A DNA stretch of 64,000 bases. Origin: Gammaproteobacteria bacterium (lineage in GTDB: Bacteria; Pseudomonadota; Gammaproteobacteria; Steroidobacterales; Woeseiaceae). Where the stretch lies: assembly GCA_013151645.1 (NCBI GenBank), contig JAADHU010000056.1, positions 1 through 64,000 of the forward strand. The letters are read 5' to 3'. This document shows positions 45,613-51,786 of the stretch, one piece after another. The notes under the pieces were generated by a model, which did no database searches, had not been told where the DNA came from, and saw only the letters and a program-made list of their open reading frames with translations. Both the position numbers and the translations under genes were made by a program. Every line of letters begins with the position of its first letter. Positions within the stretch are counted from its first letter, which is position 1.

Positions 45613-47439
45613 ATGACCAAGCCACGTAGCAAACTGTCCGTCGCGACACTAACCATGATTTTGCTCTCTGGATTCCTTCCGGCCGCATTCGGCCACGAAG
45701 TCAGTCTTTCCTGTCCGGCAGCGTTCGGCACAGTGCCCGATGCGTCGGGGCTGATTGCCTACTATCCGCTGGACGGCAACGCTGTGGATGCCACTGGCAA
45801 TGGCATGGACGCGATCGAAGTCATTGCGGCTGAACCCGTAAAAGGAAAAATCGGCCAGGGATATTATTTCAACGGAAAAGACAGCCACATACTTTTGCCG
45901 CTGGATATTTCTCCGTATGCCTACTCACAGATTACGGTAACGGCATGGATCAAGGCCGAAACGGTCAAACAGAAGCGCTACGTGGTCAGTCAGGGCGAGA
46001 AGGGCGACCGCAACCTGTTCATCTACAACAGCGCAGTGTCGGCGAGCCGGGCGCTCGTCGGCGATCCCAAGCACACGATCTACCCGGATCGCTGGACCTT
46101 TGTTGCGCTGACCTATGATCAGGCTGCCGACACAGCCGTGCTTCTTTCCGATAGCACATTCAGTGCGCTTGATAAGGTAGGCATTCCGGAGCAACCGTTT
46201 CCTTCGGTGCTGTTGGGCGCGAGGGCACCTGGCAACTCCGTGTTTGCGGGTGTCATCGATGAGGTACGGATCTACAGTCGTGCTCTGACTACCACCGAGC
46301 TCGCGGGACTCCGGAACGGATCGAGCCCAACCAGAGTCGCCGGCTCCGGAGAACCGAATCAGATTCGTGTTCTCGATGGATCGAACATGTCACAGCCGGG
46401 CCAATCCTCCCGGGACAATCAGGCAACTCCGGCTTTCGATGAGTCATCGCCGGCCATATTTTCGTCGCCTCCGCCTGCGGGCACACCGTCGCAGAATTTC
46501 GATGAGTCGTCGCCGGCCATATTCACTGAGGCACGACCGCCTGCAGACAAGCCGTCGCAGAATTTCGATGAGTCGTCTCCGGCCATATTCACTGAGGCGC
46601 GACCGCCTGCAGACAAGCCGTCGCAGAATTTTGATGAGTCATCGCCGGCTATTTTTACGTCGGCGGCCGGTGATGGGCAGAACGTTGGCTCAAATCCAGT
46701 CGTACTACCCAGGGACCAGTTGGAGAATCCCAGCGTCGCAGATATTCCCGCGGGTCCGAACTACCAGGCAGCGGATCAGAAGATCGACTACGTAACGGAA
46801 GGCACGATGCTGATGCCAGACCCGTCAACCAGCACGACCTCCGGCGGTGGTGCAGGTAGTACTCGGACAACGCAGCAGGTCTTGATGAGTGGAGACGGAT
46901 TCAAGTACGCGCCGGGCGAGGCCTACCTTACCGGAATCTCGGGTAAACGCGGATCCATCGTACGAAGAGTCATGATCGACGAATCGAGCGAGATCGGGGC
47001 GAATTCCGTTTGGGTAACCGAACGGAAAGACAAGATTTGCAGGCTGGATTTGGCTGGTCGCAAATCCGTCGTACTTATCGACGAATGTACATTTGGCCCC
47101 AATGCTATATTGAAGTATTTTGATAAAAAAGTGCGTCTCGGGGACGGCTATCAAATAGCTTCGATCCAGGTTTGTACCCGCGCTAGTAACGACCGCGTCA
47201 AAGGCCTCCGCATCAGGGGCATCGAACTCACCAGCACCGGTCTGGGCAGCGCGTGGGAACAAGATGAACTCACGTTTCCCAACTGCAAAGGCAACTGGAA
47301 AACACTCGTGATGTGTCCCAGCGGACAGATCGCGTCAGGAATCGGCGCGCATTTCGTACGTAACAAGGGAGTGAACAAGAACATTGCTGCCTTGGTGGGT
47401 ATTCAGCTTTACTGTCGGGCGTTGGTCCCGAAGAACTGA
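45613..47439 (+). CDS. secreted LamG-domain protein with tandem acidic repeats
   Basis: This 608-residue protein has a signal peptide (ILLSGFLPAAFGHEV), then a LamG/concanavalin-like jelly-roll domain (about 45-235: GLIAYYPLDGNAVDATGNGM, AWIKAE, GVIDEVRIYSRALTTTELAG), typical of glycan or protein binding. Residues about 275-350 hold four copies of FDESSPAIF spaced by Pro-rich linkers. The last 200 residues form a Cys-containing beta domain (CTFGPNAILKYF, CPSGQIASGIGAHF) that is not recognised. It resembles a cell-surface adhesin or matrix protein. Promoter-like block B precedes it. Confidence 0.85.
   Translation: MTKPRSKLSVATLTMILLSGFLPAAFGHEVSLSCPAAFGTVPDASGLIAYYPLDGNAVDATGNGMDAIEVIAAEPVKGKIGQGYYFNGKDSHILLPLDISPYAYSQITVTAWIKAETVKQKRYVVSQGEKGDRNLFIYNSAVSASRALVGDPKHTIYPDRWTFVALTYDQAADTAVLLSDSTFSALDKVGIPEQPFPSVLLGARAPGNSVFAGVIDEVRIYSRALTTTELAGLRNGSSPTRVAGSGEPNQIRVLDGSNMSQPGQSSRDNQATPAFDESSPAIFSSPPPAGTPSQNFDESSPAIFTEARPPADKPSQNFDESSPAIFTEARPPADKPSQNFDESSPAIFTSAAGDGQNVGSNPVVLPRDQLENPSVADIPAGPNYQAADQKIDYVTEGTMLMPDPSTSTTSGGGAGSTRTTQQVLMSGDGFKYAPGEAYLTGISGKRGSIVRRVMIDESSEIGANSVWVTERKDKICRLDLAGRKSVVLIDECTFGPNAILKYFDKKVRLGDGYQIASIQVCTRASNDRVKGLRIRGIELTSTGLGSAWEQDELTFPNCKGNWKTLVMCPSGQIASGIGAHFVRNKGVNKNIAALVGIQLYCRALVPKN
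46435..46665 (+). repeat. in-frame tandem repeat (FDESSPAIF units)
   Basis: Four repeats start at 46435, 46498, 46564 and 46630, with periods of 63, 66 and 66 bases. The two central copies are nearly identical over the full 66 bases. All are multiples of three, so the copy number can change without breaking the frame. Confidence 0.9.
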
Positions 47440-49252: not shown

Positions 49253-49322
49253 AGTCTGTTGAAAAAATTATCCATGGAATTTTCAACACAGCACTTCGAA
49301 AAACGGAGTTTTTCAACAGGCT
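49253..49322. mobile_element. 70-base inverted-repeat element (MITE-like)
   Basis: AGTCTGTTGAAAAA at the left end is matched by TTTTTCAACAGGCT at the right end. An inner half-copy (TTTTCAACACAGC) also occurs. CTAG flanks both sides (49248-49251 and 49320-49323), like a 4-base target duplication. The ends resemble 'CTGTTGAAAAA' termini seen on IS elements of the IS1182 type; that match is from memory. The right end touches the stop codon of the 49321 gene. Confidence 0.6.
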
Positions 49323-50082
49323 AGTTCTTGAATACGTTCTTGAAGAACCTGCCGACTTTGTTGCGAACTTTGGTCTCGGCTTCCTGTTCGGCGGCCTGCT
49401 TCGCGACGTTTGCCATTCGATCGGCGAAGCTGCCTTCACCGAGACCGGGCATGCCCACGCCGGCCATTCCAGTCATGTCCAGCTTCGCAGACCCGGCCGG
49501 CAACTCAAACAGGAGTTCGTCCTGCGGGCCACGTGTCAGCCTGGTGATTTCGAACTTGATACGCTGTTTCTCGCCGTCCTGTTCGGATATCAGGAAAGCC
49601 TTTACTGCGATTTTGTCCTCAGTAAACCAGGCAAATCCGCCGAACTTTCCTTTGGCGCTCTCATAGATGACCTTGTACTTGGTCGTGTCCATTCCATTGA
49701 CGCTTTCCTCGCCGATAAATTCACGCTCGACCAGCCGGTATTGCTGCTCGGACGGCTCCGACATGTCGGATTCTATGTACATATTCTGTGCCGAAAGCAG
49801 CATCCACCTCTTGCCGAGATCGTAGCGCTGGATGAAGATCATCTCCTGCTCACTCATCGATACTTCATCTCTAACCCTCCCCGGCACGTAGTAAATAGTA
49901 TCGGTCAGATTCGCCTCATCGGTCTCAAGTATGGCGTCCGCCACGAACGATACCTGCACCTCACTGAATTGACCGCCGCTATTGAGCCCTACAGCAATGC
50001 TGCCACCCATTGCATGCGCCCGCGTACCTGATAGCACAATAGTAACCAGGATAAGTATGTTGACAAGAATACGTGTTTTCAT
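49321..50082 (-). CDS. secreted DUF4412-like protein
   Basis: ATG 50082 follows a GGGAGAG site and gives 253 residues with a signal peptide (ILVTIVLSGTRAHAMGG). The body shows the DUF4412-type pattern: an outer strand set (DTIYYVPGRVRDEVSMSEQE, IFIQRYDLGKRWMLLSAQNM), GEESVNGMDTTKYKVIYES, and GFAWFTEDKIAVKAFLI. The C-terminus is a charged amphipathic tail (NVAKQAAEQEAETKVRNKVG). The stop TAG coincides with the CTAG flank of the inverted-repeat element, so the last codons could be altered by its insertion. Confidence 0.8.
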   Translation of the reverse strand: MKTRILVNILILVTIVLSGTRAHAMGGSIAVGLNSGGQFSEVQVSFVADAILETDEANLTDTIYYVPGRVRDEVSMSEQEMIFIQRYDLGKRWMLLSAQNMYIESDMSEPSEQQYRLVEREFIGEESVNGMDTTKYKVIYESAKGKFGGFAWFTEDKIAVKAFLISEQDGEKQRIKFEITRLTRGPQDELLFELPAGSAKLDMTGMAGVGMPGLGEGSFADRMANVAKQAAEQEAETKVRNKVGRFFKNVFKN

Positions 50083-50337: not shown

Positions 50338-50594
50338 GAGAGTTTCAGAGGAGTTTCAGGAGGAGTTTCAGGACACCCATCTTTTGTCAGCAGGAGGAGT
50401 TTCAGGGAGGAGTTTCAGGAGAGGAGTTTCAGGACACCCATCTTTTGTCAGACAGGAAGGAGTTTCAGGAAGAAGGAGTTTCAGAGAAGGAGTTTCAGGA
50501 CACCCATCTTTTCTCCGCAGAGGAGTTTCAGGACAGCAGGGAGTTTCAGGAAGGGAGTTTCAGAGGGAGTTTCAGGACACCCATCTTTTGTCAG
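50338..50594 (+). repeat. two-level direct-repeat array (GGAGTTTCAG / GGACACCCATCTTTT)
   Basis: The core GGACACCCATCTTTT occurs at 50371, 50432, 50498 and 50575. Three of the four copies continue as GTCAG. Each core is preceded by a block of GAGTTTCAG words: 3, 3, 3 and 4 copies, 13 in all, separated by short purine-rich spacers. So a short word is nested inside a longer unit of 61 to 77 bases. Frames through it encode only repetitive peptide with no gene character. Spacers are too short and irregular for CRISPR. Confidence 0.9.
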
Positions 50595-50643
50595 TACAAA
50601 CAAATAGTAGTCGGCGACGCAGGATGATTTCTCCTTGCAACCA

Positions 50644-50767
50644 TTCCAGGGCATTTAATCGAATTAATGGGTGTCCCGAATTTTCCATCTTCCAGGGCAT
50701 TTAATCGAATTAATGGGTGTCCCGAATTTTGATCGCCCCAATCGAATTAATGGGTGTCCCGAATTTT
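50644..50767 (+). repeat. facing repeat array (AATTAATGGGTGTCCCGAATTTT)
   Basis: A 41-base unit (TTCCAGGGCATTTAATCG, then AATTAATGGGTGTCCCGAATTTT) is repeated at 50644-50684 and 50690-50730. A third, shorter copy lies at 50740-50767. Further CCGAATTTT or TGAATTTT words follow to about 50807. ATGGGTGTCC is the exact reverse complement of GGACACCCAT in the left array, so transcripts across both could fold into alternative hairpins. Confidence 0.88.
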
Positions 50768-50945
50768 CCCCGCCGTTGAATTTTCTCCGAATTTTGCCGA
50801 ATTTTCCGTAGTTCGAGAACCAGTGGGCCGTATTGGGGCGACGAAATACGAATTGTATTAGAAAAAATTAAAATAATTAATAAAATGGACATATTTTATT
50901 AATTATCATACTATTTAGCATCGAAAAAATAACCATCGAGGAAAA

Positions 50946-51323
50946 ATGAAGGACTGGTCCTACATCACGAGCCTGATCGGAAATCAGGCAGTTAGCATTG
51001 AGCGAATCAGAATCAGAGATATGGACGTCGCTATCGAGGGTGAATTTGAACTACCGCCGCTGGCCCGGTTGCCCTCAGATGATCAGGTCTTCGTGGCGGT
51101 GTTTGTGCAATGTCACGGCTCGATCAAAAAGATGGAGCAGTACTTCGGAATCAGCTACCCAACAGTGAAGAATAGATTGGCGAAAATCGTCGCATCGATG
51201 GACTTTGCGGCCATAAAGCCAGCGGGCGAGCTGGTTGATCAGACGTTGAGTCGCCTTGAGGCAGGTGAAATCGACGTTAACGAGAGTATCGATATCTTGG
51301 CGGCGCGAAAGCGAAATAGTTAG
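50946..51323 (+). CDS. DUF2089-family protein
   Basis: This 125-residue protein matches DUF2089: IEGEFELPPLARLPSDDQVF followed by a helix-turn-helix-like KKMEQYFGISYPTVKNRLAK (about 60-80) and a C-terminal helical part (LSRLEAGEIDVNESIDILAA). The family is thought to be regulatory and DNA-binding and commonly precedes a SHOCT-like/YvlB-type gene, as it does here (23 bases). The C-terminal 'LEAGEIDVNEAIDIL' helix resembles the N-terminal helix of its partner, a way for the two to interact. The start is the only ATG in a good position and follows the A/T-rich end of the repeat array. Confidence 0.88.
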   Translation: MKDWSYITSLIGNQAVSIERIRIRDMDVAIEGEFELPPLARLPSDDQVFVAVFVQCHGSIKKMEQYFGISYPTVKNRLAKIVASMDFAAIKPAGELVDQTLSRLEAGEIDVNESIDILAARKRNS

Positions 51324-51345
51324 GTTTTGACGAGGATGTGCAGAA

Positions 51346-51786
51346 ATGAACGAAAATCGAAAACGCGTACTTGATTTGCTCGCAGCCGGGAAGATTGATG
51401 CTGCAGAAGCCGACCGACTTCTATCGGTGTTAGAGGCGGGTACCAGCCCGGAGGAGAAAACCCGGGATGCCGGCCAGCCGCCGCGAGACATTGGTTCGGC
51501 CAAATACCTTTGCGTCAAAACTACGCCCAAAGAGGGTGCACCTTCGGACACTGAGGCAGTTAATGTGCGGATTCCAATCTTGCTGGTCCGGGCCGGCATG
51601 AAACTCGGATCGATCATTCCTGAGTCTGGATACGCGGCGCTGTCGGCCAATCTGGGCCAACACGGCATTGATCTCGATCTGGATTCGCTGAACAAGAATG
51701 GCATCGGCGCGTTAGTTGATGCGCTGTCTTCGAGCTCAATCGATATTGATACCGAGCACGAGAAAGTTCGAATTTACTGCGAATAG
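51346..51786 (+). CDS. SHOCT-like/YvlB-type protein
   Basis: This 146-residue protein has a short N-terminal helical hairpin (RKRVLDLLAAGKIDAAEADR, about 5-30), the SHOCT-like oligomerisation motif of YvlB/LiaX-type proteins. A linker and a predicted beta domain follow (AVNVRIPILLVRAGMKLGSI, then IDIDTEHEKVRIYCE). It has no signal peptide or membrane helix. Pairing with a DUF2089 gene is common and suggests a two-component switch responding to envelope stress, but the ligand and target are unknown. Confidence 0.82.
   Translation: MNENRKRVLDLLAAGKIDAAEADRLLSVLEAGTSPEEKTRDAGQPPRDIGSAKYLCVKTTPKEGAPSDTEAVNVRIPILLVRAGMKLGSIIPESGYAALSANLGQHGIDLDLDSLNKNGIGALVDALSSSSIDIDTEHEKVRIYCE

Follow-up and report, generated by a model that had tools for sequence, protein, structure and literature searches.

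TnpA-REP enzymes cleave single-stranded DNA at CT or CA dinucleotides that lie to either side of the REP, and re-join the ends (PMC8266576); the clusters formed by REPs and REPINs also contain duplicated flanking segments (PMC3733652, PMC3116915). The TnpA-Y1 proteins of subclass 2.3 have a median length of ~325 aa, an HuH-Y distance of ~110 and a Y---NP motif; they occur as several diverged copies per genome, mainly in Chromatiales and Alteromonadales, and have been published as being without an identifiable flanking REP-like structure (Quentin et al. 2018, PMC6006769). We describe here an intergenic array of short repeats, together with its counterparts in the same genome and in relatives, where a short inverted sequence, which we call the foot, is found in fixed orientation beside transposases that fit this subclass.

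The window, by which we mean the whole stretch of 64,000 nucleotides that was analysed, had been described in a first-pass annotation as carrying a direct repeat in which a 9-base word occurs 13 times in blocks of 3+3+3+4, each block capped by a 15-base core. Sequence search confirms this for the left array (Table 1), in which all 13 copies of GAGTTTCAG are identical and each of the four blocks is capped by GGACACCCATCTTTT, against a chance expectation of 0.47 copies of the word over the whole 64-kb window, with the reservation that the contig comes from an assembly of 83 contigs, in which the precise number of copies could have been altered. That description overlooked a second, mirrored array at 50668-50805, which holds three inverted copies of GGACACCCA and six of GAATTTT; what lies over about 50340-50806 is thus two arrays in inverted orientation and not a single direct repeat. 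The GGACACCCA feet face each other over ~80 bases and iterate different words on their outer sides.

Table 1. Features of the window array and of its neighbouring genes
Feature	Position	Strand	Basis
Gene with weak DUF4412 similarity, probable start ATG 50082, outside element	49321..50082	-	
Left outer-flank array, GAGTTTCAG x13	50340..50575	+	sequence search
GAGTTTCAG starts, block 1	50340, 50351, 50363	+	
Foot 1, GGACACCCATCTTTT	50371..50385	+	
GAGTTTCAG starts, block 2	50397, 50410, 50424	+	
Foot 2, GGACACCCATCTTTT	50432..50446	+	
GAGTTTCAG starts, block 3	50460, 50476, 50490	+	
Foot 3, GGACACCCATCTTTT	50498..50512	+	
GAGTTTCAG starts, block 4	50523, 50541, 50555, 50567	+	
Foot 4, innermost left foot, GGACACCCATCTTTT	50575..50589	+	
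Interior between innermost inverted feet, no transposase gene	50590..50667	.	
Inverted foot 1, innermost right foot, GGACACCCA, continues as TTAATTCGATT	50668..50676	-	
Inverted foot 2, GGACACCCA	50714..50722	-	
Inverted foot 3, GGACACCCA	50751..50759	-	
Right outer-flank array, AAAATTC x6 (GAATTTT on +), three attached to feet	50678..50805	-	
GAATTTT starts	50678, 50724, 50761, 50778, 50789, 50799	+	
DUF2089 HTH protein gene, outside element	50946..51323	+	
SHOCT-like domain protein gene, second on that side, outside element	51346..51786	+	

Within the left array GAGTTTCAG and GGACACCCATCTTTT are invariant, whereas almost all of the joints between them, which are rich in purines, differ from one another; the distance from word to word is 11-18 bases within a block and 33-36 across a core. 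Because words and cores are perfectly identical and yet the joints vary, the variation is better explained by inexact joining while the array was being amplified than by mutations that an old array gathered later. All joints of the left array, including those after the cores, read C|AG, which we take as a hint only, since GAGTTTCAG itself ends in CAG. A coding repeat was considered and rejected, as the spacing of the words breaks the reading frame.

The element sits in the intergenic region shared by the divergent DUF4412-like and DUF2089/SHOCT-like genes, the latter two forming a probable operon (50946-51786) that adjoins it. In a synteny comparison of relatives no close homologue of the window's DUF2089 gene was found in 40 genomes, and for this reason there is no empty site for the window element itself. 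Elsewhere in the window a 66-bp repeat (3.3 copies, 46434-46649) lies in frame within a predicted secreted protein of 608 aa (45613-47439).

The foot is dispersed through the genome: GGACACCCATC has 44 copies, against 1 for the reversed control pattern, and the few that fall within genes are probably chance matches. Many of the sites are inverted pairs, and at least seven carry an 81-bp inverted-pair element which, to judge from an interior common to seven sites whose outer flanks are unrelated, is a dispersed small mobile element; the interior of the window element is unlike the 81-bp consensus. Mosaic arrays at other contigs combine the same foot with another word, namely AGCGGGATTTCAG at C31, CCTATTCAG and AGCAATTCAG at C7, AAGATTCG at C74 and GGGCGAAATTCAG at C17, such that each locus has its own word and only the GGACACCC foot is common to all. 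The elements at contig C36 were considered as integron attC sites and rejected, since they are GGACACCC pairs in inverted orientation and lack the attC core GTTRRRY. In most relatives GGACACCCATC is rare or absent; the sole genome of the same genus, which is 82% complete, has 0, whereas 26 copies were counted in one genome that belongs to a different family of the order. One relative outside the family (G058, contigs C14 and C9) shows dense clusters of GGACACCCA and its degenerate variants in successive intergenic regions over ~8-10 kb, one of these regions also holding a gene for a 347-aa HuH transposase.

Four large HuH transposase genes, with weak PF01797 scores, are present in the genome on contigs C7, C42, C74 and C82, the copy on C74 appearing degraded. 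Feet of the GGACA type flank the transposases of C7, C74 and C82 on both sides, and that of C42 is flanked by GGACAGGCA feet. The C42 enzyme is a divergent member of the same group with this foot of its own and with iterated CACCGACTAGGACAGG arrays downstream, a case which suggests that foot and enzyme diverge together. One of the four scored 42.9 bits against the NCBI REP transposase model, under the 80-bit cut-off, and a profile search against the sequences of solved structures gave no significant match; comparison of its predicted fold (mean pLDDT 85.8) alone gave one, with 4er8, the E. coli TnpA-REP, as the closest solved structure (Z 11.8, rmsd 3.1, 157 of 165 residues), far above every other. 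The motifs NHYH (HuH) and YVDLNP (the catalytic Tyr in a Y---NP context) are present in all seven of the first-found proteins, and the HuH, Tyr and NP columns are conserved among 46 proteins. The open frames encode 299-361 aa (~320), with an HuH-Y distance of 96-112. As length, HuH-Y spacing and taxonomic spread agree, these transposases fit TnpA-Y1 subclass 2.3 as set by its published description. No transposase of this group was found in any phage record searched.

A second, unrelated system is present in the same genome, in the form of a canonical short RAYT (C69:69275) flanked by GTAG REPs; the GTAG REP sequence GAGCGTGACCTGACACG has 123 sites (at most 2 mismatches), often in regular tandem arrays of ~84 bp. 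This canonical Y1 transposase, considered as a candidate owner of the feet, was rejected on account of its GTAG flanks. In another genome (G007:C54) AAATAGACCTGACACCT repeats, probably TIRYT-type ends, lie in both orientations around an HuH transposase of 239 aa that is of a different type.

The first-pass annotation had proposed a search for flanking REP-associated transposases; that check was run, it found them beside foot arrays here and in relatives, and it decided the reading. A scan of relatives with one genome per species yielded at least 580 confirmed transposase relatives, of which the best 80 were taken; one locus (L116), a duplicate of a contig already included, was excluded, leaving 79 GTDB loci. 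De novo counts of 9-mers in the transposase flanks turn up the same motif repeatedly. In the 500 bp nearest the gene, the motif GGACA[CG]CCA occurs 65 times inward and 2 outward over the 79 loci, and GACA[CG][CTG]CA 144 times inward and 9 outward (at 65 and 8 loci, respectively), whilst at 1.5-4 kb both orientations are equal and at background. Where both flanks are complete (n=69), an inward foot is found on at least one side in 57 loci and on both sides in 22, against 6 and 0 for outward feet; the figure of 22 is for feet of the strict pattern, and degenerate feet are common. Repeated 9-mers number 27.4 per 400 bp of flank, compared with 3.6 in distant control DNA. When the ends are aligned they are A-rich at -7 to -4 with a purine preceding GACA, the foot beginning [AG]GACA, and feet are present too in Pseudoalteromonas plasmid records that were not used in defining the motif. 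Dispersed and inverted, the feet stand in fixed orientation beside these transposase genes across Gammaproteobacteria, and bound elements that moved.

The iteration seen in the window recurs at these feet and lies largely on their outer side. For each foot we asked whether the outer 7 bases recur within 150 bases without an attached foot: they do so at 31 of 54 feet (57%) in this genome, at 26 of the 91 feet examined in three relatives and, in the wider set, at 41 of 110, compared with 6/54, 6/91 and 7/110 for the 7-mer on the inner side and about 4-5% for random 7-mers. Feet in one array are not independent, and a count per locus was therefore also made, in which iteration is visible in 11 of the 14 loci of this genome; in the transposase flanks of the GTDB loci 36 of 88 are iterated, against 3.9% in nearby control DNA. 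The iteration appears specific to these feet, since copies of the flank are found at only 2 of 34 GTAG REP sites of the same genome (6%) and at 11 of 184 generic, unrelated inverted-repeat arms (6%). The 7-14 bases immediately outside the foot, differing from locus to locus and from side to side, are re-copied locally in irregular units, most of which stop where the foot starts or no more than five bases into it (in this genome usually 1, 3 or 5 bases). The junctions are a mixture of blunt joins, short filler bases and microhomology, as ordinary template switching would give too. Flank duplication as such is not new, given the duplicated segments in the published REP and REPIN clusters cited above. 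In the literature covered, which was partial, we found no earlier report linking flank iteration to this transposase group and nothing relevant under the literal foot sequence; the short, polar, locus-specific iteration of words and its tie to these transposases appear to be new.

Copies and strains differ in these flanks. In Colwellia sp. TT2012 one element occurs three times at different sites, 93-95% identical over ~1.28 kb; similarity stops near the feet, and flank words and array sizes differ, one copy having single feet and the other two iterating different words. In two strains of Pseudoalteromonas shioyasakiensis the transposase lies at one and the same site, between an identical pair of neighbouring genes, with 4 and 2 upstream feet, respectively; in Pseudoalteromonas strain CF6-2 the insertion is absent at that site, though the sequences have diverged too far for the point of insertion to be placed exactly.

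We consider it probable (about 0.72) that the window feature is a non-autonomous element with inverted GGACACCCA feet, whose flanks were amplified by transposase-linked nick-and-slip. Its identity as the end of a small mobile element, of the kind served by REP-type single-strand-cutting transposases, is well supported; the mode of amplification we infer from the comparative analysis. Expansion of a mobile element's end was one of three options in the first-pass annotation, and the foot-flanked HuH transposases single it out as the right one. All four transposase genes being elsewhere in the genome, action on the window element would be in trans. The transposase would nick single-stranded DNA at the boundary of word and foot, as TnpA-REP does at CT or CA, and re-joining or repair synthesis at the nick might then slip back a few bases. 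Short slips would give extra copies of the word, and longer, less frequent ones extra units of word plus foot, on the outer side only; whole-block duplications afterwards could have produced the 3+3+3+4 hierarchy.

The same arrays might have arisen by passive replication slippage, with a hairpin of inverted feet stalling the polymerase and the outer flank being duplicated while the transposase remains idle after insertion. We judge this less likely, though it is the main rival: copies end in the first bases of the foot, which would be the base of such a hairpin, some junctions show microhomology, and hairpin-stalled slippage predicts similar breakpoints. It does not predict the contrast with GTAG REPs, which are real hairpins, or with other inverted repeats, both of which have the low rates given above. 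By inspection GGACACCCA is not self-complementary, pairing being possible only between two inverted feet; the two innermost feet of the window can so pair as single-stranded DNA, but the hairpin is only modestly better than shuffles, 14 of 200 of which fold as well (z -1.75), and some loci without a close inverted partner, such as C20, iterate too. The simple slippage considered in the first-pass annotation would by itself leave unexplained that iteration keeps largely to the outer side of these feet and is rare at GTAG REPs and other inverted repeats.

Invariant words with varied spacers, placed between divergently transcribed genes, would suit selected binding sites, and a regulatory, iteron-like operator serving the genes on both sides was accordingly weighed; it is very improbable, as the spacing is irregular and without helical phase, each locus has its own word with only the foot in common, and the same anatomy recurs beside transposase genes and at unrelated loci by the dozen, so that the protein-binding array first suggested is not upheld. 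An artefact of assembly we rate slightly lower still: the metagenome assembly is fragmented and short repeats can be miscounted, but the anatomy is repeated at several other places in this genome, in complete Pseudoalteromonas plasmid records and in many genomes of cultured isolates. Direct repeats within an intergenic region could also mark a locus of CRISPR type or an RNA that is structured or processed, a reading to which we give almost no credence. The array has no Rfam match and its predicted folding is weaker than that of 199 of 200 shuffles, and the structured RNA first suggested is not supported; its spacers, of ~2-27 bases, are neither unique nor constant in length, unlike those of a CRISPR.

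That subclass 2.3 HuH transposases drive a one-sided, ongoing amplification of the DNA just outside their recognition foot is a more tentative proposal, which we would put somewhat below even odds. If true, there would be a distinct local mutational process: nicking by the transposase would cause 7-14 bases of flank to be copied over and over, giving locus-specific and strain-variable arrays at the ends of mobile elements and, should the transposase cause the iteration, a targeted source of strain-to-strain variation beside genes. The foot offers a candidate substrate for a widespread transposase group that had none recognised, the biochemistry of which is testable with defined oligonucleotides, and it explains a confusing class of short repeats, mosaic in build, that occur in Gammaproteobacteria of the sea and of sediments.

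Compared with known systems, the present transposases share with published subclass 2.3 (PMC6006769) the long HuH/Y1 proteins, the Y---NP motif, a similar HuH-Y distance and several diverged copies per genome; that subclass was published without REP-like flanks, whereas here most loci have an oriented GACA[CG][CTG]CA foot together with flanks that are iterated. With IS200/IS605 elements (IS608, ISDra2) they share the HuH/Y1 chemistry on single strands and a transposase gene set between conserved ends, but the protein is larger and its fold nearer to TnpA-REP, and none of the subterminal hairpins that those elements have at each end was noticed in an unsystematic look. The TIRYTs and TIRtrons (Di Nocera et al. 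2013, PMC3733652) likewise combine a tyrosine transposase with flanking inverted repeats that are not GTAG hairpins, and their repeats are similarly dispersed in dimers and groups, with flank-word iteration not among the features described in the passages covered; in the TIR consensus, GGGGWSAS, the GGWSAS part fits GGACAC/GGACAG, and the leading GG is usually absent here. The foot is best seen as the end sequence of subclass 2.3 elements, and is probably related to these TIRYT inverted repeats. REPINs with their RAYTs (Bertels and Rainey 2011, PMC3116915; Nunvar et al. 2010, PMC2817692) are gene-less pairs of inverted repeats spread genome-wide, for which a Y1 transposase acting in trans is the presumed mover, as here, and their clusters can contain flanking sequence; the REPIN-type trait of inverted pairs dispersed in many copies is present in the 44 GGACACCCATC sites and the 81-bp pairs. 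The GTAG REP, by contrast, has a 5' GT[AG]G and a hairpin unit, whereas the GGACACCC foot begins [AG]GACA in a non-palindromic unit, and GTAG REPs of the same genome seldom show short flank-word iteration. The first-pass view that the array is not typical of REPs is thus true of GTAG REPs, though the element does belong to the wider RAYT/TIRYT world: it has neither the foot nor the hairpin of a GTAG REP, and works like the end of a REPIN or a TIRtron.
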